From assembly GCA_009842675.1 (NCBI GenBank), contig VYEX01000012.1:1-42962 (forward strand): a stretch of DNA of 42,962 nt. Direction: 5' to 3'. Every line of letters begins with the position of its first letter. Position 1 is the first letter of the stretch. The translations under genes and the position numbers were made by a program. The notes under the pieces were generated by a model, which saw only the letters and a program-made list of their open reading frames with translations, did not search any database and was not told where the DNA came from. This document shows positions 23,983 through 42,445 of this stretch, one piece after another. Source of the stretch: Acidimicrobiia bacterium (lineage in GTDB: Bacteria > Actinomycetota > Acidimicrobiia > Acidimicrobiales > Bin134).

Positions 23983-26181
23983 ATGATTTTTGGGCTCCGC
24001 CGCTCCGTAGTGGCTGCCACGCTGTTGGCGACCCTCGGAGCGGTGGTGCTCGCCGTGCTCACCTGGAAGGGTTCCCAGGTAACCAGCGAGTCCTTCCTGG
24101 TCACCACCTACATCGGACTCTTCCTCGGGGCGCTGTGGGCGATGTACGCCACCGGGCTGGTGGTGGTCTACACCACTACCGGGGTGTTCAACTTCGCCCA
24201 AGGCGCCATCGGGGTGTTCTCGGCGTTCCTGTACTGGGAGCTCCACGTGAACCGGGGCTGGCATTCCATCCTCGCCCTGTTCGTGGTGGTCTGCCTGTTC
24301 GCCCCTGCGCTGGGAGTGACGCTTGATGCGGTGATCATGAGGCGGCTGCGCACCGCTTCCCTCGTGGTGCAGCTCATGGTCACGGTGGCGATCATGGTGC
24401 TGTTGCTGTCGGTGGTTGGCGACATCTGGGAAGCCGACACACCACGACGAGTGCCTTATCTGTTCGGCATCAACAACGGCATCGACTTGGGTCCTTCGCA
24501 GCTTCCCTGGCACCGGCTCATCGTGTTCGCGGTGGCGATCGCCATTGCCGTGTCTATGCGTTTCCTGCTGCGCCGCACCCGTATCGGCACGGCAATGCGG
24601 GCGGTGGTGGACAACCGGGAACTGGCCGCCCTCAACGGCGCCCGCCCCAACGTGGTGTCGTCCACGTCGTGGGCGCTGGGTTCCATGATGGGGGCGCTGG
24701 GAGGCATCCTCATCGCCCCCGAGCTGGGACTCGATCCCGCCACCCTCAACAACGTGGTGATCATCGCATTCGCGGCCGCCGCCTTCGGTGCCCTGCGGAA
24801 CCTGCCCATGGCCGTGATCGGGGCCATGTTGATCGGGCTGTTGCGGGCCCACACCGGGGCATGGCTCGACTTCGGGCCCGACTTCCGCTTTGCTCACTTG
24901 GCTGTCGCTCCGCTGATCTTGCTGTTTGTGGTTGTCGCCTTGCCCCAGGCCCGCCTGGAGGTGGGTCGGTTGGCCCACCATCTCCGGCGTCACGAGCGCT
25001 ACACCAAATGGTGGGAGGGGCTCTTCGGCTGCGGAGTGGTCATCCTGCTGGCGGTGGTGTTTTCCGGCGGGTGGCTGGACTTCGGCATTTGGGATCCAGG
25101 GGCTTGGGGGAGCAGAGAGCTGAACTCGGCCAACGAGGCCATGGCACTGGCCTTGATCGGCCTGTCCCTGGTTCCATTGATCGGCTGGGCCGGGCAGATC
25201 AACTTCGCGCCCTTGGCCTTTGCCGGATTCGGCGCGTTCGTCTACCTCAAGCTGGCCGGTGACACTGGCAACGGCTACTGGATTCTGCTGGTGGGCTTGC
25301 TGTGCGCCCCCCTGGGAGCGCTTGTGGCCCTGCCGGCTGCTCGATTACGGGGTTTGTACCTGGCCCTCATGACCATGGCTTTCGCCCAGGCCATGTCGCT
25401 GATCTTCTTCCCCCACCCGTGGGTCATGCCCATCATCGGTACCGGACGGCAGTTCCCCCATATTGAGCTGTTCGGGGTCACGTTCGACGATCGCCGGGGC
25501 TTCTTCTTGTTGATGGTGTGCGTCTTCGCCATCTTTGTGTACGGATTGGTGCTATTGCGAAGATCCCGATACGGCCGAAGATGGATGGCCATCAACGACT
25601 CTCAGGCTGCATCCGCCACCCTAGGCGTGCCAGTGGTGTGGACCAAGGTGGTGGTATATGCCGTATCCGCCTCCATGGCCGGAATCGCCGGAGTGTTCTG
25701 GGCCACGGTTTCGGGCAATGTCGACAGCGTGCAGGGGTTCGACCTGCTCATCGGATTCAACATCGTGCTGTTGGTCGCCGCTGCGGGGGTTTCCATCCCC
25801 ATGGCCGGCATCTTCCTAATTTTCATCCCGCTGTTCAAAGGATTCGGGCTGCGACTAGAAGATGCTGGGAACGTCGACTTCCTGGTAACGCTGCTCGACA
25901 TAATGACCACCTACGGTCCTGGGCTGATGGTGCTGGGCATGGTGTTCAACCCCAGAGGGGCCATATTCGAGATGGGCCGGGGCTTCTCACCCATCTTGCC
26001 GTGGCGCAGCGATGCCCGAGCCGAGATTGCCGCCGAAAACGCCCAGAAACGCGAGCCGGAAATCGGCGAGTTGGGCCTGGAGCGGCCCTTCAACCCCGAA
26101 GAGGTGATCGCCATCGACCGCCGACTGGGGATCTTGGACGACGTGGTACCAAAGGAGGGCTATGGCACTGCTCGAAGCTGA
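23983..26181 (+). CDS. fused LivH-LivM ABC permease
   Basis: A 732-residue membrane protein made of two ABC importer permeases in a row. Residues about 40-320 are LivH-like (TTTGVFNFAQGAIGVFSAF near 65; a GTAMRAVVDNRELAALNG coupling region near 205). Residues about 380-690 are LivM-like (LIGWAGQINFAPLAFAGFGAF near 400; YGRRWMAINDSQAASATLG coupling region near 530). Usually these are separate genes. A last stretch of about 60 polar residues is cytoplasmic. No strong ribosome site precedes the ATG; it follows the binding protein by 42 bases. It overlaps the LivG start by 20 bases, in line with coupled translation. Confidence 0.9.
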   Translation: MIFGLRRSVVAATLLATLGAVVLAVLTWKGSQVTSESFLVTTYIGLFLGALWAMYATGLVVVYTTTGVFNFAQGAIGVFSAFLYWELHVNRGWHSILALFVVVCLFAPALGVTLDAVIMRRLRTASLVVQLMVTVAIMVLLLSVVGDIWEADTPRRVPYLFGINNGIDLGPSQLPWHRLIVFAVAIAIAVSMRFLLRRTRIGTAMRAVVDNRELAALNGARPNVVSSTSWALGSMMGALGGILIAPELGLDPATLNNVVIIAFAAAAFGALRNLPMAVIGAMLIGLLRAHTGAWLDFGPDFRFAHLAVAPLILLFVVVALPQARLEVGRLAHHLRRHERYTKWWEGLFGCGVVILLAVVFSGGWLDFGIWDPGAWGSRELNSANEAMALALIGLSLVPLIGWAGQINFAPLAFAGFGAFVYLKLAGDTGNGYWILLVGLLCAPLGALVALPAARLRGLYLALMTMAFAQAMSLIFFPHPWVMPIIGTGRQFPHIELFGVTFDDRRGFFLLMVCVFAIFVYGLVLLRRSRYGRRWMAINDSQAASATLGVPVVWTKVVVYAVSASMAGIAGVFWATVSGNVDSVQGFDLLIGFNIVLLVAAAGVSIPMAGIFLIFIPLFKGFGLRLEDAGNVDFLVTLLDIMTTYGPGLMVLGMVFNPRGAIFEMGRGFSPILPWRSDARAEIAAENAQKREPEIGELGLERPFNPEEVIAIDRRLGILDDVVPKEGYGTARS

Positions 26182-26926
26182 GCATGTGGTCATGCGCTTC
26201 GGCGGCGTGGTGGCCCTCGACAACGCCTCGGTGGATGTCGATCCCGGATTGGTGACCGGCCTTATCGGTCCTAACGGCGCGGGCAAGACCACTTTGTTCA
26301 ACGTGGTCACCGGCTTGCTACCCCCCACCAGCGGGGCGGTGAAATTCGACGGCGTCGACATCACTCGGGCCACCGTGGCCAAGCGGTCGCAGATGGGCAT
26401 CGCCCGGACCTTCCAGAAGCTGGAGGCATTCAACACGCTTAGCGCATTCGACAACGTCCGGGTGGCGGTGGAGCAGAACCATCGCGCCAAGTGGAAGCAC
26501 CGTCGGGTCAGCGACGTGGCCCATGAGATGTTGGGCAAGGTGGGCCTCGACGATGTAGCCGATGTGACCGTGGGCACCCTTCCCACTGGCAGCGCCCGCC
26601 TGGTCGAGTTGGCCCGGGCCTTGGCCTGTCGGCCCCGGGTGCTGTTGTTGGACGAGCCGTCGTCTGGTCTGAACGAAGAGGAGACCTCTTCCATTGGCCA
26701 GCTTCTTCTGGAACTGGTGGCCGACAAAGACAACGATCTCGCGGTGTTGCTGGTGGAGCACGATATGAGCTTTGTGATGGGGGTGTGCGCTCGCATCCAT
26801 GTTCTGGACTTCGGCAAGATCATCGCGGTGGGCACCCCCTTCGAGGTCCAGGGCAACGAGGCCGTGAGGGCCGCCTACCTGGGCGGCGACGAATTTCGGG
26901 GTGCCTATGCGGAGATGGACGAATGA
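26162..26926 (+). CDS. livG: LivG-type ABC ATPase
   Basis: A 254-residue ATP-binding subunit. Walker A GPNGAGKT at about 39-46, Walker B LLLDEPSSGL near 161-170 and the switch histidine in LVEHDMSF near 199 are clear. The ABC signature is degenerate (LPTGSARLVELARAL instead of LSGGQ...), a little unusual even for LivG, which often has LPYGxQR. GGAGG lies shortly before the ATG. It should pair with LivF to power the LivHM permease. Its stop overlaps the LivF start by four bases (ATGA). Confidence 0.92.
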   Translation: MALLEAEHVVMRFGGVVALDNASVDVDPGLVTGLIGPNGAGKTTLFNVVTGLLPPTSGAVKFDGVDITRATVAKRSQMGIARTFQKLEAFNTLSAFDNVRVAVEQNHRAKWKHRRVSDVAHEMLGKVGLDDVADVTVGTLPTGSARLVELARALACRPRVLLLDEPSSGLNEEETSSIGQLLLELVADKDNDLAVLLVEHDMSFVMGVCARIHVLDFGKIIAVGTPFEVQGNEAVRAAYLGGDEFRGAYAEMDE

Positions 26927-27639
26927 GCCCAGAATCGGCAAACCCGCTGCTGGAGCTGGTCGGCATCCGGGCTGGCTACGGCACCATCGACGTGCTCCAC
27001 GGGGTGGACCTCCGGGTAATGCCGGGTCAGGTGTACGCCCTTCTGGGTCCGAACGGCGCGGGCAAAACCACCACTCTTGGGGTGGCAAGTGGTCAGATTC
27101 AGCCCCACGCGGGCTCGGTGCTGCTCGACGGACACGAGGTGAACGGGGTCTCCCCCGATCGATTGGCCCGGGCCGGGGTGTGCCTAATCCCCGAGGGCCG
27201 GGGCATATTCCCCAATCTCACCGTGGCCGAGAACCTGCGGATGAGCACTTACGCCGGTGTGTCCTACAAGGAGGTGCAGGAACGGGCATTCGCCCAATTC
27301 CCCCGCTTGCAGGAGCGCCGCAACCAGATGGCGGGCACCCTGTCGGGGGGCGAGCAGCAGATGCTGGCTATGTCCCGGGCGCTGTCGACCGACCCGGCCA
27401 TCCTGATGCTGGACGAACTATCCATGGGGTTGGCGCCCATCATCGTGGAGGAGCTCTACGAGCAGGTTGCCACCCTGGCTGAAGCCGGACTGTCCATCCT
27501 GATTGTGGAGCAGTTCGCCCAAGCGGTTCTTGGTGTGGCCAACGAGGCCGCCATAATGCTCCATGGCAAAATCCTGCGCACCGGCCCGCCCGAAGAGATC
27601 GCTGAAGAATTGACCGCCGCCTATCTAGGCATGTCCTGA
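26923..27639 (+). CDS. livF: LivF-type ABC ATPase
   Basis: A 238-residue ATP-binding subunit. Walker A GPNGAGKT near 41-48, signature LSGGEQQ near 138-144, Walker B ILMLDEL near 158-164 (the usual DEP reads DEL here), and LIVEQ where other ABC proteins have the switch histidine, as is normal for LivF. The ATG at 26923 overlaps the LivG stop; the longer frame upstream is a shadow of LivG. It should dimerise with LivG under the fused permease. Confidence 0.92.
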   Translation: MSPESANPLLELVGIRAGYGTIDVLHGVDLRVMPGQVYALLGPNGAGKTTTLGVASGQIQPHAGSVLLDGHEVNGVSPDRLARAGVCLIPEGRGIFPNLTVAENLRMSTYAGVSYKEVQERAFAQFPRLQERRNQMAGTLSGGEQQMLAMSRALSTDPAILMLDELSMGLAPIIVEELYEQVATLAEAGLSILIVEQFAQAVLGVANEAAIMLHGKILRTGPPEEIAEELTAAYLGMS

Positions 27640-35025: not shown

Positions 35026-38025
35026 GTGGGCGAGTTCATCCAATTGCTAGTGAGCGGGGCCATCGCTGGCTCCATCTACTCGCTGATCGCCGCCGGGCTC
35101 ACGCTGAGCTACACCTCCACCGGAATCTTCAACCTGGCCTATGGGGGCATCGCCTACACCTCGGCCATGCTCTATTTCCAGCTGATCAACGCTCTGGGCA
35201 TAGAGAGCCTGGGCATGCGGCTGCTGTCGTTCTTCCTCGTGGTGCTGGTGTTTTGCCCGTTGCTTGGCCAACTCCTGAACGTGGCGGTATTCCGTCCCCT
35301 GGCCCGGGCCAACGACGCGGCCAAAGTCATGGCCACCATCGGAATTCTGGTGGCATTACCCGCGCTCACCGACTTGATTGTCGACTTGGGTACCAAGACG
35401 TGGGACTGGGGCCTGCAATCCACCGACTACGTGTTCCTCACCCCCGGGGTGTGGAAAGTGCCCAGCGAAACCTGGACCTACGACCTCGGGAGCTTCGACC
35501 TGCGCATCAGCAGCAATCAGTGGGCGGTACTGGTTGTGGCCGTGGTCGTCGCCGTTGGACTGTGGGCGCTGATGCGCCACACCCGTATGGGGCTTCAAAT
35601 GCGGGCAGTGGTGGACCGACCCGATTTGGCCGGGCTGCGGGGGGTCAGCGAAAAGTTCACCTCGTCGGCCGCTTGGATCATCGGCACCATGCTGGCCGGG
35701 ATGGCCGGAGTGGTCGGCGCCCCGGTGTTCAATTCGCTGGAGTCCAATCAATACAACGTGTTCATGTTCATCGCCACCGCCGCCGCGGTGGTTGGCGGGT
35801 TGCGCTCCATTCCGCTGGCTTTCGCCGGGGGCGTGGCCTTGGGAGTGGTCACCAGCTGGGTGGGCCGGTACGCCACCTTTGCCCAGGACATTCGGGGATT
35901 CGAGAGCTCAGTGCCGTTCGTAGTTCTGTTGGTGGGGCTGTTGTTTATGGCCCGGGAGCGGACTCGCCGCAGCGGGGTGGTCGCCGACGCCCCTCCGGCC
36001 ACCGTCTACACGGACGACCTGCCGGCGTGGCGGGTTCGACTGCCGTGGTTCCTGGGCGCGGCGTTCATCGTGCTTCAGGTTTTCGTCTTTGCCGACCAGT
36101 TCTGGCTCGGGCTGTGGGTCACCGGCTTGGCCTTTGGCCTGGTGTTCATGTCCTGGGTGCTGCTTACCGGCCTCGGGGGCATGGTCAGCTTGGCCCAAGC
36201 GGCCTTCGTGACCATGGCGGCCATGACCGCTGGTCTGATCTTGGACAAGACCGGGCTGCCGTTCATTCCCGCGCTGATCGTGGGCGTGATTGTTGCCGGA
36301 GTGCTGGGCGTAGTCGTGGCACTTCCCGCCCTGCGGCTGGGGGGTTTGCCGTTGGCATTGGCCACCCTGGCGCTGGCTTTCATGAGTGAGCGGGTGCTGT
36401 TCGAGTGGAGCTGGTTCAAGAACGGCCAAGGCTCCAAGGGATGGGATATCCCCCGCCCACAACTGGGGCCGTTCGACTTGGAAGACGAGAAATCCCTTGC
36501 CGTGCTGTTAGTGATATTGGTGTTGGCCGCGGGCTGGTTGGTGCGAAACCTCCAGCGCTCGGTCACCGGACGGGCCATCATCGCGGTGCGCAACTCCGAG
36601 CCCGCCGCAGCCACCTCTGGCCATTCCATCGTTCGCACCAAGCTGGCGGTGTTTGCCCTGTCGGCATTGCTAGCCGGGTTCGGTGGGGTGTTTTTCGCCA
36701 CCTTCATCGGCAATGTGACTCCGTTCACCGCCACCACCCAGGCCGGTCTGTTCTGGCTGGCCGTGGTGATCTTGGTCGGCATCCGCCGGCCTGGGGCCGC
36801 GGTAATGGCCGGCATCATGGTGGCGGCCAGCGGACACACATTCGGCACTGGCTGGCACTGGGATTGGATGGAGTCGTGGCACGTGGTGCTGGTGGCCTCG
36901 GTATTCGGGGCGGCGGCATTGTTCACCGCCATCCGAGACAGGCAAGTGGGGCTGCCGTTCTCGCCGCCCATTCTCGGAGTGCTGGCGGTGCTGGCCTTTA
37001 TCTGCCTGGCACGCGTGTATTCCTGGTATCCCATCGACTGGGACGGGTTCGACCAGTACGACGAGGCCCGCAACATCACCGCCTTCATGTTCGGCCTCGG
37101 CGCCATGCAACTCGCCCGCGAGCCCGATGGAATCCTCGCGTTCACCGCCGCCCAAAACCGGGTTCGCCGCGATGCTTGGCGTCGGCGGCTCGCTGCCTGG
37201 CGGGGAGAGGTCGAGATTGCCAGTTCGAGTCGGATTGCTGAATCGGTCCCGGCCGCACCGGCGGCGTCAGAGACTCCTGCGGTTGCCGAGGAGATGGGCG
37301 ACCAATACATCGGCGATCACCCGCCTGCCCTCGAACTCGTGGGGGTGAGGGCCAGTTACGGATTGGTGGAGGCCCTGCACGGAATTGACTTGTCAGTACC
37401 CCGGGGTGAGATCACTGCACTCTTGGGTCCCAACGGCGCCGGCAAGTCCACCACCTGCGCGGTGGCCTCCGGCCTACTGGCTGCCACCCACGGCATCATC
37501 CGGTTCGACGGGGAGGACATCACGGCGCTGCGCAGCCACCGCCGGTCCCGACGGGGCGTAGTGCTGGCCCCAGAGGCCCGGGGTATTTTCAGCGGTCTGA
37601 CCGTGCGGGAGAATCTGCAACTCTGGCTGCCCAAACCAGAGGACCGCGACCTGTGCTGTGATCGGTTCCCCATCCTGGGCGAGCGCCAGAACCAGCTGGC
37701 TGGCAATCTCTCAGGGGGCGAGCAGCAGATCCTTACCCTGGCTCCGCTGCTGGCCCACCCGCCCGAAGTGCTAATCGCCGACGAGCCGTCGCTGGGTTTG
37801 GCCCCGCTCATCGTGAATCAGATCCTTGAACTGTTCATTGAGTTCAAGGAGCGGGGCGTGGCCTTGCTCTTGGTAGAGGAGAAGGCCCGCGACGTGCTGG
37901 AGATTGCCGACTCGGTGGCGTTCATCAGCTTGGGCCACATCACCTGGCACGGCCCCCGCTCCGAGGTGGATCACGACCAGCTCGACGCCGCCTATCTGGG
38001 AGAGGTAACGGCCAACTCAGACTGA
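35026..38025 (+). CDS. LivH-LivM-LivF triple fusion ABC transporter
   Basis: A 999-residue protein that joins three importer parts. Residues about 1-300 are LivH-like (TGIFNLAYGGIAYTSAM near 28; RMGLQMRAVVDRPDLAGLRG near 190). About 345-700 are LivM-like (LTGLGGMVSLAQAAFVTMAA near 385; TGRAIIAVRNSEPAAATSG near 515). A linker of about 60 Ala/Glu-rich residues leads to a LivF-like ATPase at 769-999 (Walker A GPNGAGKS at 801-808, LSGGEQQ at 895-901, Walker B LIADEP near 916-921). GTG at 35026 is chosen because the LivH homology begins there; AGGGGG lies about ten bases upstream. LivG is not found next to it. The binding lipoprotein follows after 66 bases. A long open frame upstream is shadow. 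Confidence 0.9.
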   Translation: MGEFIQLLVSGAIAGSIYSLIAAGLTLSYTSTGIFNLAYGGIAYTSAMLYFQLINALGIESLGMRLLSFFLVVLVFCPLLGQLLNVAVFRPLARANDAAKVMATIGILVALPALTDLIVDLGTKTWDWGLQSTDYVFLTPGVWKVPSETWTYDLGSFDLRISSNQWAVLVVAVVVAVGLWALMRHTRMGLQMRAVVDRPDLAGLRGVSEKFTSSAAWIIGTMLAGMAGVVGAPVFNSLESNQYNVFMFIATAAAVVGGLRSIPLAFAGGVALGVVTSWVGRYATFAQDIRGFESSVPFVVLLVGLLFMARERTRRSGVVADAPPATVYTDDLPAWRVRLPWFLGAAFIVLQVFVFADQFWLGLWVTGLAFGLVFMSWVLLTGLGGMVSLAQAAFVTMAAMTAGLILDKTGLPFIPALIVGVIVAGVLGVVVALPALRLGGLPLALATLALAFMSERVLFEWSWFKNGQGSKGWDIPRPQLGPFDLEDEKSLAVLLVILVLAAGWLVRNLQRSVTGRAIIAVRNSEPAAATSGHSIVRTKLAVFALSALLAGFGGVFFATFIGNVTPFTATTQAGLFWLAVVILVGIRRPGAAVMAGIMVAASGHTFGTGWHWDWMESWHVVLVASVFGAAALFTAIRDRQVGLPFSPPILGVLAVLAFICLARVYSWYPIDWDGFDQYDEARNITAFMFGLGAMQLAREPDGILAFTAAQNRVRRDAWRRRLAAWRGEVEIASSSRIAESVPAAPAASETPAVAEEMGDQYIGDHPPALELVGVRASYGLVEALHGIDLSVPRGEITALLGPNGAGKSTTCAVASGLLAATHGIIRFDGEDITALRSHRRSRRGVVLAPEARGIFSGLTVRENLQLWLPKPEDRDLCCDRFPILGERQNQLAGNLSGGEQQILTLAPLLAHPPEVLIADEPSLGLAPLIVNQILELFIEFKERGVALLLVEEKARDVLEIADSVAFISLGHITWHGPRSEVDHDQLDAAYLGEVTANSD

Positions 38026-38091
38026 CTCCGTCGGGGTGACAGTAGAAAGCACTTGGCCTACTATGTCGCCAATCCAACTATCGGAGGGGAA

Positions 38092-39579
38092 ATGAGACGA
38101 TCACTGTTGCACAAGCTTCTCGCGCTCTTGGCCGCGCTGGCGTTGGTGGTTGCTGCCTGCGGCAACGACGACGATGACGCTCCGGCCCCAGACGCTGCTC
38201 CGGCCCCGGCTGATGAGCCTGCTGAGGAGCCCATGGATGACGACGACGACCATGAGCACGAGGACGACGACGACCATGCGCACGAGGACGACGACGACCA
38301 CGAGCACGACGAAGAGCCCATGGATGACGAGCCTATGGACGACGAAGAGCCGATGGATGACGCCGAGCCCATGGACGACGAGGAAATGGCAACCTCCCGC
38401 ACTTGGGGTGCCTACACCTACGAGATTGACTTCGAGCCATCCACTCGGGGTGTGAGCGACGACACGGTGCGCCTGGGTGCCATGACTCAGGATGCTCTGT
38501 ACGGGGGATTCACCGACGGCATCAACGCCCGACTCGGTCGGGCCAACCGCGACGGCGAGCTGCCCGGCGGTCGGCAAGTCGAACTCGTGCAATACGTGGA
38601 CGATGGCAGCGATCCACAGGCCAACTTCGAAGGTGCCCGCAGCATGGTGGAGAACGACGAGGTGTTCGGCATCATGGTCACCTCTGCGGTGTCGCTTCCC
38701 CAGACCACCGATTACCTGGCCGAGAACCAAGTGCCGTTCACCGGCTGGGGATTCATGCCCGGGTTCTGCGCCCCCAACGACTGGGGCTTCGGCTTCAACG
38801 GCTGCCTGAGCGGCTATGCCTTCGGAGTCGAGGGCGCCGATCCTCTGGTGTCAGTCCAGAACATTTGGTACGACTTCTTCGGCACCGAGGACATTGTGGT
38901 CGGCATCTTCAACAGCGACGACGACGCTGGTCGCGCCGGCCACGCGCTGTACGAAACGCTGTGGGCCGGCAAGCTGGCGTTCAACGATTTCGTTCCTACT
39001 GCAAGTGCAGGCGGCATCACCGATCCCACTCGGTTCGTAAACACAGTGCTGGAGCACGAGCCCGATTTGGTGATCCTGTCCACCGACTTCGCCGGAGCCA
39101 TCACCCTGAAGGCGACCATCGCCGCTTCGGGATATGAAGGCCCGGTGGCCGATTATCTGACCTATGTTCCTGGCCTTCCCGGGTCGAGCCCTGACTTGGG
39201 TCAGGCCCTGGAGGGCGGCTACGCCGTGACCCAGGTGCCCCCTGTTGAAGATGCTTCGCAGCCGGCCATTCAGCAGCTCTTGGCTGACTACGAGGCAGTT
39301 GGGGCCTTCCCCGGCTTCGGCAGCTTGGTGGGCTATTGGTCGGCCGATTTGATGATCCAGATGATCGCCGCCGCCGGCGAGGATCTGAACACCGCCAGCT
39401 TCTACCAGGCGGTCAACATCGACGGCTTTGCGACCACCCAGCAGTCCGGCGGTCTCGGCTCGGTGAAGTGGCCGGCCGACCACGTCATTGCCCCCGACTG
39501 CACCGGCATGGTGCAGGTGGTGGACGCCGAATATGCGGTGGCCTACGAATTCGTTTGCTACGGCGACCCCGACCGGTAA
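38092..39579 (+). CDS. Liv-type ABC importer substrate-binding lipoprotein 2
   Basis: A 495-residue type I periplasmic-binding protein. The signal peptide ends with lipobox VVAAC, so the mature protein would be lipid-anchored. A linker of about 80 residues follows, rich in Asp, Glu and His and then in MDDEEP-type repeats. The binding domain starts near DDTVRLGAMTQDALYGG. The ATG has GGAGGGG shortly upstream. It is the natural partner of the triple fusion transporter just before it. The ligand is unknown; the CoA-transferase and CoA ligase that follow suggest an organic acid. Confidence 0.9.
   Translation: MRRSLLHKLLALLAALALVVAACGNDDDDAPAPDAAPAPADEPAEEPMDDDDDHEHEDDDDHAHEDDDDHEHDEEPMDDEPMDDEEPMDDAEPMDDEEMATSRTWGAYTYEIDFEPSTRGVSDDTVRLGAMTQDALYGGFTDGINARLGRANRDGELPGGRQVELVQYVDDGSDPQANFEGARSMVENDEVFGIMVTSAVSLPQTTDYLAENQVPFTGWGFMPGFCAPNDWGFGFNGCLSGYAFGVEGADPLVSVQNIWYDFFGTEDIVVGIFNSDDDAGRAGHALYETLWAGKLAFNDFVPTASAGGITDPTRFVNTVLEHEPDLVILSTDFAGAITLKATIAASGYEGPVADYLTYVPGLPGSSPDLGQALEGGYAVTQVPPVEDASQPAIQQLLADYEAVGAFPGFGSLVGYWSADLMIQMIAAAGEDLNTASFYQAVNIDGFATTQQSGGLGSVKWPADHVIAPDCTGMVQVVDAEYAVAYEFVCYGDPDR
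38233..38388 (+). repeat. low-complexity Asp/His then Met-Asp-Asp coding repeat
   Basis: Repeated GACGACGAC, CATGAGCAC and ATGGAC motifs encode DDDDDHEHEDDDD-type blocks, then PMDDE-type blocks. It resembles the repeat in binding protein 1 in its Met-Asp-Asp part, but the His-rich part is unique to this gene. Confidence 0.85.
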
Positions 39580-39663: not shown

Positions 39664-40821
39664 ATGAAAAACGGGCCGCTCGACGGCATCAGGGTGGTAG
39701 ACCTCACCCGGATCTTTTCCGGACCGATTTGCGGGCGGGTCCTGGCCGACTTGGGCGCCGATGTGATCAAGGTCGAGCCCCCCACCGGCGACCTCACCCG
39801 ACCGGTTCCCCCGGTGGACGAAGACGGCATTGGGGTCACGTTCAGCCACATGAATGCAGGCAAGCGCAACATCTGTGTAGACCTCAAAGCTGAGGGCGCC
39901 CCCGAGCTGGTGGCTGCGCTGGCCGACCGGGCCGACGTGCTGTTGGAGAACTACCGCCCCGGCGTCATGGTCCGCTACGGGCTGTCGTATGAGGAGCTGT
40001 CGGCCCGCAACCCCCGACTGGTGTTCTGCTCCATCACCGGGTTCGGCCAAACCGGCCCGTGGACCCATCGCCGGGCCCACGCTCCCATGATGCACGCTGT
40101 AGCCGGCACCATCGAGTTGGCCGCTCGTCTCCGGGAGGCCGAGCCGCTCCAGGAGATCCACCAGCACGGTGATCTCTACGCCGGGTTCATCTCGGTGTCT
40201 GCGGTGTTGGCGGCGCTATACCAGCGGGAGCACACCGGCACCGGCCAGCACCTCGACGTCGCCATGGCTGAGACCCTCGTCTACGCCAATGACCAGGCGG
40301 GCAACGACCTCTCTGGCTACGACGGACCGAGGGATTTCGACACGTGGAACTATGCCGTCGCCCGCACCGCCGACGGCCAGGCGGTTTCGCTGATCGGCAA
40401 TCCCGAACACATGTTGCCCCGGTGGGTGGCCGCGCTAGGAGGCAGTGCCGACGACTGCCCCGACCAGCCCACCCGGGAAGAGGCCCTTGCCCTGCTTCGA
40501 GGCCTGGTGGCCGGCTTCTCAACCTACGAGGAATTGGCCGAAGTGGTGGAGCGCCAGCCGCTGCCCGCAGCCCGCATCAGCTCGGTAGCCGAGCTAGCCG
40601 CCTCCGACTGGGCTGCCGACCGGGGGCTGATAGCCGAGATCCGTCCCGGCATCCCGGTGCCAGCCAAGCCATTCGCCATGGGCGACGCCACCGTGGGAGT
40701 CACTCACCGATCTGCCCGACTAGGCGAGGACACCCGCTCGGTATTGGCCGACGATCTGGGTCTCAGCGACAACGAAATCGCCGATCTCATCGCTCAGGGA
40801 GCAGTCCAAGCCGCTGACTGA
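39664..40821 (+). CDS. class III (CaiB/BaiF) CoA-transferase
   Basis: A 385-residue protein of the family III CoA-transferases. The N-terminus reads PLDGIRVVDLTRIFSGP, then the LADLGADVIKVEPP strand typical of CaiB. The catalytic aspartate lies in the QEIHQHGDLYAGFI region (about 163-176). These enzymes move CoA between carboxylic acids without ATP. It lies between the importer and the acyl-CoA ligase on the same strand, which points to CoA activation of an imported acid. The initial ATG has no strong ribosome site. Confidence 0.88.
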   Translation: MKNGPLDGIRVVDLTRIFSGPICGRVLADLGADVIKVEPPTGDLTRPVPPVDEDGIGVTFSHMNAGKRNICVDLKAEGAPELVAALADRADVLLENYRPGVMVRYGLSYEELSARNPRLVFCSITGFGQTGPWTHRRAHAPMMHAVAGTIELAARLREAEPLQEIHQHGDLYAGFISVSAVLAALYQREHTGTGQHLDVAMAETLVYANDQAGNDLSGYDGPRDFDTWNYAVARTADGQAVSLIGNPEHMLPRWVAALGGSADDCPDQPTREEALALLRGLVAGFSTYEELAEVVERQPLPAARISSVAELAASDWAADRGLIAEIRPGIPVPAKPFAMGDATVGVTHRSARLGEDTRSVLADDLGLSDNEIADLIAQGAVQAAD

Positions 40822-40867: not shown

Positions 40868-42445
40868 ATGTCGGATGCTCCGTGGACCACCATCTGCGAG
40901 TTGGTTGACGACGCCGCCCGCCGGTTCCCCGACTTGGAGGCCCTAGTGGACGGCGATGTGCGCTGGACCTTCCCAGAGCTGCGCGATCGCATCCGGGACT
41001 CGGCCCGGGCGCTAATGACCTCGGGCATAGAGCCGGGAGACCGGGTGGCGGTTTGGGCGCCCAACATCTGGGAGTGGGTGGTGGTTGGGCTGGGAGTTCA
41101 TCTGGCCGGCGGTGTGCTGGTGCCAATCAACACCCGATTCAAGGGACGCGAAGCCGATTTCATCCTCCAGAAGTCGGGGGCCCGCATCCTGTTCACCGTC
41201 ACCGATTTCTTGGACACCGACTACGTGGCGCTGCTCAGCGAAGCCGACGGCGGCCACGGTCTCAACGAGATTGTGGTGTTGCGGGGATCTGTCCCGGATG
41301 GCACCACCGGCTTTGCCGAATTTCTCGAGCGGGCCCAGCAGGTGACCGAGGCCGACGGCGACGCCCGGGCCGCATCGGTGAGCGGCGACGATCTGTGCCA
41401 CATCATGTTCACCTCGGGCACCACCGGCCTGCCCAAGGGGGCCATGCTGGTCCACGCCGCCATCTGCCGGGGCTTCAAATCGTGGTGCGATGTGATCGGC
41501 CTGCGGGCTGGCGACCGCTACCTGATTGTCAACCCCTACTTTCACGCATTCGGCCTCAACTCAGGCATCTTGGCCTGCCTGATGACCGGAGCCACCAACA
41601 TCCCCCACGCAGTGTTCGATGTGCCTGCGGTGATGGCGCGCGTACCCGAGGAGCGCATCTCCATGCTCCCCGGACCGCCGGCTATCTACCAGACCATCTT
41701 GAACCATCCCGATCTGGACAGCTTCGACATGTCCACCCTGCGCCTGGCGGTAACCGGAGCCGCCGCCATCCCGGTGGAGATGATCCTCCAGATGCGGGCC
41801 CGCCTGGGGTTCGAGACCATCGTCACCGGCTATGGCCTCACCGAAGCGTCGGGCATCGCCACCATGTGTCGCCACGATGACGACCCCGAGACCATCGCCA
41901 ACACCTCGGGTCGGGCCATTCCCGACGTAGAGGTGCAGATCACCGATGACGATGGCAATGAGATGCCCCGGGGCGAGCCCGGCGAGATCGTGGTGCGGGG
42001 CTACAACGTGATGCTTGGCTACCTGGACGATCCCGACCAGACCGCCGAGACCATCGACGCCGACGGCTGGCTTCACACTGGCGACATCGGGGTGATGGAC
42101 GAGGAGGGCAACATCGACATCACCGACCGCAAGAAGGACATGTTCATCGTGGGGGGTTTCAACGCCTACCCGGCCGAAATCGAGAACATCATGCTGGCCC
42201 ACCCCCAAATCGGGCAGGTGGCGGTGATCGGGATGCCCGACGGCCGACTGGGAGAGGTGGCGGTGGCCACGGTGGTGCCCGCCCCTGGGGCCGACCTCGC
42301 CGAGGCCGACGTCATCGCCTGGTGCCGCGACCAGATGGCCAATTACAAGGTGCCCCGTCGGGTGCGATTTACTGACGCCCTTCCCCTCAACGCCTCTGGC
42401 AAGGTGCTGAAGTACGTTCTCCGCGAGCAGGCAGCCGCCGAGTGA
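40868..42445 (+). CDS. acyl-CoA synthetase/AMP-dependent CoA ligase (FadD-like)
   Basis: A 525-residue ANL-superfamily ligase. The P-loop-like motif FTSGTTGLPKGAM is near 178-190, the aromatic/acyl pocket and GYGLTEASG motif near 322-330, the hinge DGWLHTGDIG near 398-407, and the catalytic lysine near the end in NASGKVLK. It should make an acyl-AMP and then an acyl-CoA from a fatty or aromatic acid. It starts 46 bases after the CoA-transferase and is probably co-expressed. Chain length or substrate cannot be read. Confidence 0.9.
   Translation: MSDAPWTTICELVDDAARRFPDLEALVDGDVRWTFPELRDRIRDSARALMTSGIEPGDRVAVWAPNIWEWVVVGLGVHLAGGVLVPINTRFKGREADFILQKSGARILFTVTDFLDTDYVALLSEADGGHGLNEIVVLRGSVPDGTTGFAEFLERAQQVTEADGDARAASVSGDDLCHIMFTSGTTGLPKGAMLVHAAICRGFKSWCDVIGLRAGDRYLIVNPYFHAFGLNSGILACLMTGATNIPHAVFDVPAVMARVPEERISMLPGPPAIYQTILNHPDLDSFDMSTLRLAVTGAAAIPVEMILQMRARLGFETIVTGYGLTEASGIATMCRHDDDPETIANTSGRAIPDVEVQITDDDGNEMPRGEPGEIVVRGYNVMLGYLDDPDQTAETIDADGWLHTGDIGVMDEEGNIDITDRKKDMFIVGGFNAYPAEIENIMLAHPQIGQVAVIGMPDGRLGEVAVATVVPAPGADLAEADVIAWCRDQMANYKVPRRVRFTDALPLNASGKVLKYVLREQAAAE

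Follow-up and report, generated by a model that had tools for sequence, protein, structure and literature searches.

A conserved LivH-LivM-LivF fusion and a candidate unlinked LivG partner in an Acidimicrobiia genome

The fused gene and its neighbours

We analysed a 42,962-nucleotide stretch of an Acidimicrobiia bacterium genome, hereafter the window. It harbours a gene coding for a LivH-LivM-LivF fusion (HMF), with its neighbours, and a second Liv locus. The features of the window are listed below.

35026..38025, + strand: LivH-LivM-LivF fusion (HMF), 999 aa, GTG start
35026..35985, + strand: LivH-like permease domain, residues 1-320
36013..37170, + strand: LivM-like permease domain, residues 330-715
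36889..37095, + strand: genus-specific insert of ~70 residues in LivM, with hydrophobic stretches, residues 622-690
37171..37323, + strand: flexible Ala/Pro/Glu-rich linker, residues 716-766, low pLDDT
37324..38013, + strand: LivF-type nucleotide-binding domain (NBD), with GPNGAGKST, LSGGEQQ and IADEP; VEEK replaces the switch-His motif
38053..39579, + strand: lipoprotein substrate-binding protein (SBP, Peripla_BP_6, E 2.3e-27)
39664..40821, + strand: CaiB-type CoA-transferase, a conserved neighbour named by sequence inspection
40868..42445, + strand: acyl-CoA synthetase, a conserved neighbour named by sequence inspection
23983..26181, + strand: LivH-LivM fusion of the second Liv locus, 732 aa
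26162..26926, + strand: LivG of the second Liv locus, 254 aa, outside the clade of HMF-linked LivGs
26923..27639, + strand: LivF of the second Liv locus, ~238 aa, outside the clade of HMF F domains

Translation of the window revealed no internal stop in the HMF frame (35026-38025, + strand). The frame is open upstream as far as 34639, and the GTG at 35026 is likely to be the start, as the compared orthologues align from VGEF/MGEF. Two BPD_transp_2 (PF02653) stretches were found with Pfam, the best of them at residues 364-622 (E 8.8e-57), and a single ABC_tran stretch at residues 784-922. The first-pass annotation had described the three domains as sharing one frame with intact motifs, and indeed the Walker A, signature and Walker B motifs are intact in the 999-residue chain. 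Its assignment of the protein to importers by homology also holds. The best NCBIfam models of the ATPase are UrtE and LivF, with scores under the equivalog cut-offs, and in a tree the NBD clusters with LivF rather than LivG domains. A structure prediction from seven sequences yielded a mean pLDDT of 59 and a pTM of 0.57, too weak for testing NBD docking; the PDB matches listed were ATPase domains throughout (1ji0, LptB). A larger HMF alignment, in which rows of unfused LivM matched the LivH half, was set aside.

By inspection, the SBP likely starts at ATG 38092, which follows GGAGG, and its signal ends in LVVAACG. A long Asp/His/Glu/Met-rich repeat (38092-38450; DDDDHEHE, EPMDDE) separates the lipobox from the binding domain, and both its length and its motif differ among orthologues. 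The CoA-transferase and acyl-CoA synthetase genes are probably part of the HMF operon, the gaps that precede them being 84 and 46 bases, respectively. The acyl-CoA synthetase gene adjoins HMF in the genus and is found near it in G232, G161 and three Streptomyces. These gene neighbours suggest a carboxylate substrate, which would make carboxylic acids the substrate class of the HMF importer.

Conservation and origin of the fusion

Orthologues of HMF are present in 17 of the 21 other genomes of the genus, with 82-95% identity. Fifteen copies from the genus, of 995-1008 residues, are full length and devoid of stops, and a codon-by-codon comparison of these copies showed that the linker indels preserve the frame in all intact orthologues. 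The dN/dS values calculated from the same copies were 0.085 for H, 0.10 for M, 0.31 for the linker and 0.06 for F. Every domain is under purifying selection, and the constraint on the linker is weaker but clear. The LivM insert, missing from the HMF proteins of other families, has a dN/dS of 0.084 within the genus, which indicates purifying selection as well. A frameshift hidden near the linker, the caveat attached to the first-pass annotation, is excluded by the 15 orthologues, their in-frame indels and the dN/dS values.

The HMF copies of G020 (TGA; L083 ~5834) and G001 (TAG; L085 ~4543) each harbour a single stop. These genomes are fragmented, and the stops may represent a pseudogene or a sequencing error. 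They could be taken to indicate that the fusion itself stems from an error of sequencing or assembly, or that the gene has decayed. This is extremely improbable in view of the intact orthologues, the in-frame linker indels and the low dN/dS, and of the presence of the same fusion in distant families. In G010, HMF and the SBP appear to form a single 1434-residue fusion, which we rejected as a probable misassembly in which the SBP signal peptide is absent and the join is inside the Asp-rich repeat.

At least 12 loci from other families encode the same H-M-F order, with 43-56% identity. HMF is encoded in 31 of 397 genomes sampled from the order (~8%), three F-only matches having been excluded, and in about three of the 296 genomes of a phylum sample (~1%), one of these genes being cut by a contig end. 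In a scan of the contigs of named genomes, most of the matches listed were ordinary unfused Liv loci. The named holders of HMF include Streptomyces longisporoflavus, S. albiflavescens, Streptomyces sp. B-S-A8, Sphaerisporangium fuscum, Nocardioides sp. LHD-245, Nonomuraea gerenzanensis and Embleya sp. NBC_00888. Conservation of the fusion in the genus, in other families and in named Actinomycetota excludes chance or an assembly error. Judged from sequence, HMF is thus a real, conserved fusion that represents a variant of the LivFGHM importer, and the H-M-F arrangement is a conserved variant across Actinomycetota. A literature search, with subscription papers outside its coverage, returned no description of this fusion.

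In phylogenetic trees, a single clade (support 100/100) unites the F domains of every HMF protein; the H-M-F fusion therefore most likely arose once. The HM parts of HMF are sister to the HM-only type of contig C58 (100/98), and a single fused-HM clade (100/99) comprises both of these and the second window locus. The window HMF is sister to that of G033 (100/99), and the H-M-G and H-M-F-G proteins described below form another HM clade (100/100). The two loci of the window had been proposed to display stages of fusion side by side. The second locus does have the HM fusion only, with LivG and LivF as separate genes, and both HM proteins of the window belong to one clade. However, the nearest HM-only relative of HMF is the C58 protein, and the HM tree indicates that the window holds two members of one HM lineage rather than consecutive steps.

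A candidate second ATPase encoded outside the operon

LivG is absent from the HMF locus in the window and in all genus genomes examined, the sole ATPase there being of the LivF type, a point that the first-pass annotation had not raised. In other families, the genes for SBP, HMF and LivG are side by side at a dozen or more loci, and they are also found together in Streptomyces, Sphaerisporangium, Nocardioides, Nonomuraea and Embleya. The genome to which the window belongs has an orphan LivG on another contig.

C52:52215-53033: orphan LivG, unlinked to the HMF operon

No permease or LivF was found within ~7-10 kb of this gene, and the same holds for two single-contig relatives. By inspection, its surroundings (L088, C52:42000-60000) harbour acyl-CoA dehydrogenase, LLM-type oxidoreductase and CoA-transferase-like genes, reminiscent of a ring-degradation cluster.

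In a LivF-rooted tree of 52 LivG rows, the orphan LivG and all HMF-linked LivGs grouped in one clade (100/99), in which no other LivG of the same genome included in the tree was placed. Within this clade, G033 provides the sister LivG of the orphan (99/98). The LivG tree thus mirrors the HM tree, as in both the copy of the window genome is sister to that of G033. HMF and a LivG of the HMF type are jointly present in 28 of the 397 order genomes, HMF alone in three and the LivG alone in one, uncorrected counts that are inflated by phylogeny and operon linkage. Within the genus, the co-occurrence is not significant (counts 16, 2, 2, 2; Fisher p 0.14). In G329, LivG is on the HMF contig but 26 kb away, which represents another unlinked case, and G019 has kept the orphan LivG with HMF absent. 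In the genus, the gene for the second ATPase LivG appears to have moved out of the HMF operon.

The F domain of HMF has GPNGAGKST, a canonical LSGGEQQ and IADEPSLGL, but VEEK and a PE Q-loop. In the compared Liv loci, LivF domains have Q or E at the position of the switch His and mostly P-E or P-G in the Q-loop, and LivG domains combine a Q-loop Gln with VEH, IEH or IDH. The orphan LivG harbours an FQ Q-loop, a VEHD switch and an unusual signature, ELPIARARM. As these motif sets are complementary, a LivG core and a LivF signature would form a canonical composite site, with the other site degenerate, and an F/F or G/G pair would be devoid of canonical sites. In heterodimeric ABC exporters, degenerate sites are an accepted design (PMC7756269), and by analogy this design might apply to an HMF/LivG importer.

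We consider it likely that HMF, the unlinked LivG and the lipoprotein SBP make up an asymmetric ABC importer of the LivFGHM/HAAT type, probably for a carboxylic acid. The HMF chain would supply both membrane domains and a LivF-type ATPase on a flexible linker, and the separate LivG (C52) would be the second ATPase. One HMF, one LivG and the SBP would thus constitute an importer with two transmembrane domains (TMDs) and two NBDs. Its working ATP site would combine the Walker A, Q-loop, Walker B and switch His of LivG with the LSGGEQQ of LivF, and the second composite site would be degenerate. The imported carboxylic acid would then be converted to a CoA ester by the adjoining acyl-CoA synthetase or CoA-transferase.

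HMF might instead need no LivG, if the F domains of two HMF chains paired in a LivF-homodimer importer or if F acted alone. The LivG-less HMF locus of every genus member examined is consistent with this, and no LivG of the partner type was detected in the HMF-bearing genomes G001 and G005 (drafts, 88-92% complete) or G375; G001 and G005 are also devoid of the gene neighbouring LivG. Nevertheless, F has neither the switch His nor the Q-loop Gln, so that both sites of an F/F pair would be degenerate, and two HMF chains would bring together four membrane domains. Furthermore, LivG is kept next to HMF in other families, and the dedicated LivG clade is still present in the genus, which makes an HMF importer free of LivG very unlikely. 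Alternatively, HMF could borrow the LivG of the second window locus (26162-26926), or that of any other Liv system of the genome. Sharing of ATPases is known for some ABC importers, and the second locus, with its separate LivG, is 8 kb off on the same strand. However, this LivG groups with those of HM+G+F loci, not with the HMF-linked LivGs, and it has its own adjoining HM and LivF; we deem such borrowing quite unlikely. More generally, it is unlikely that the one-NBD chain is the whole committed motor, with F energised by F/F pairing or by several cellular LivGs instead of a dedicated one.

With the HMF/LivG importer as the preferred reading, the relocated, phylogenetically matched LivG is the most useful new point. 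The gene for a likely obligate subunit is outside the operon, and operon-based annotation would thus call the importer incomplete. Owing to the asymmetry of the NBD motifs, the question of which ATP site drives transport can be put to the test.

Other Liv fusions of the genome and known systems

We collected the architectures of the Liv loci of this genome on the stretches that were retrieved. Six LivH-M-G fusions of 940-1008 residues were found among them (C5, C14 twice, C47, C64, C70), as well as a single LivH-M-F-G chain of 1284 residues (C1:1660-5514, L021, - strand) and an M-G fusion in C22 whose M part is a weak match. The H-M fusions are those of the second window locus and of C58, and several loci are unfused. 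Thus, three-domain Liv fusions are common in this genome, with H-M-F as the exception. The first-pass annotation had considered the union of all three domains rarer than two-domain fusions, which is not the case in this genome; only the F-type version is uncommon. Together, these proteins provide a natural covalent map of how ATPases are tethered to LivHM, with F attached in one lineage, G in another and both in a third protein, all within one genome.

The C1 chain comprises the complete set of membrane and ATPase components of the importer, four in number. Its conservation is 90-96% in six further genomes of the genus, and G022 and G040 have full-length counterparts at 45-48%. Beside each of the six H-M-G fusions, a protein of 733-784 residues with a C-terminal LivF is encoded. 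In the two tested proteins of this kind (L024:3538-5790, L029:2975-5233), an N-terminal MFS_1 domain was detected, making up an unusual MFS-ABC chimera, and the LivF-ending partners in L025, L026, L032 and L033 are likely to be of the same kind. In L276, L277 and L279 (from G024, G031 and G028, respectively), frames of 977-1053 residues code for LivF and LivG fused behind an N-terminal part of ~450-510 residues.

By domain content, HMF belongs with the LivFGHM/HAAT importers, a type whose substrates are hydrophobic or branched-chain amino acids or related compounds. Shared with them are two BPD_transp_2 domains, a LivF-type ATPase and a Peripla_BP_6 binding protein. LivFGHM/HAAT systems also have a LivG-type ATPase, whereas the HMF locus is devoid of it and the orphan encoded elsewhere is the candidate, their pairing being putative. 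A further difference is that H, M and F form one polypeptide, with LivG separate and, in the window genus, unlinked. The LivH-M-G fusions of the same genome resemble HMF in having two permease domains and one ATPase per chain. However, their fused ATPase is LivG, LivF being on the separate 733-784-residue protein, and their HM parts and NBDs represent a lineage apart from HMF. The C1 LivH-M-F-G protein shares the order H-M-F with HMF but includes LivG, and thus both ATPases, and it belongs to the H-M-G lineage. Lastly, class 1 ABC exporters are IM-ABC fusions (PMC2821768) and, like HMF, have membrane and ATPase domains in the same chain. The resemblance to a full exporter proposed earlier does not extend to the architecture, as a full exporter has two NBDs (TMD-NBD-TMD-NBD) and the HMF chain has a single ABC_tran stretch. 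Class 1 exporters have one NBD per membrane domain, whereas HMF is an IM-IM-ABC protein with importer-type permeases and a binding protein.
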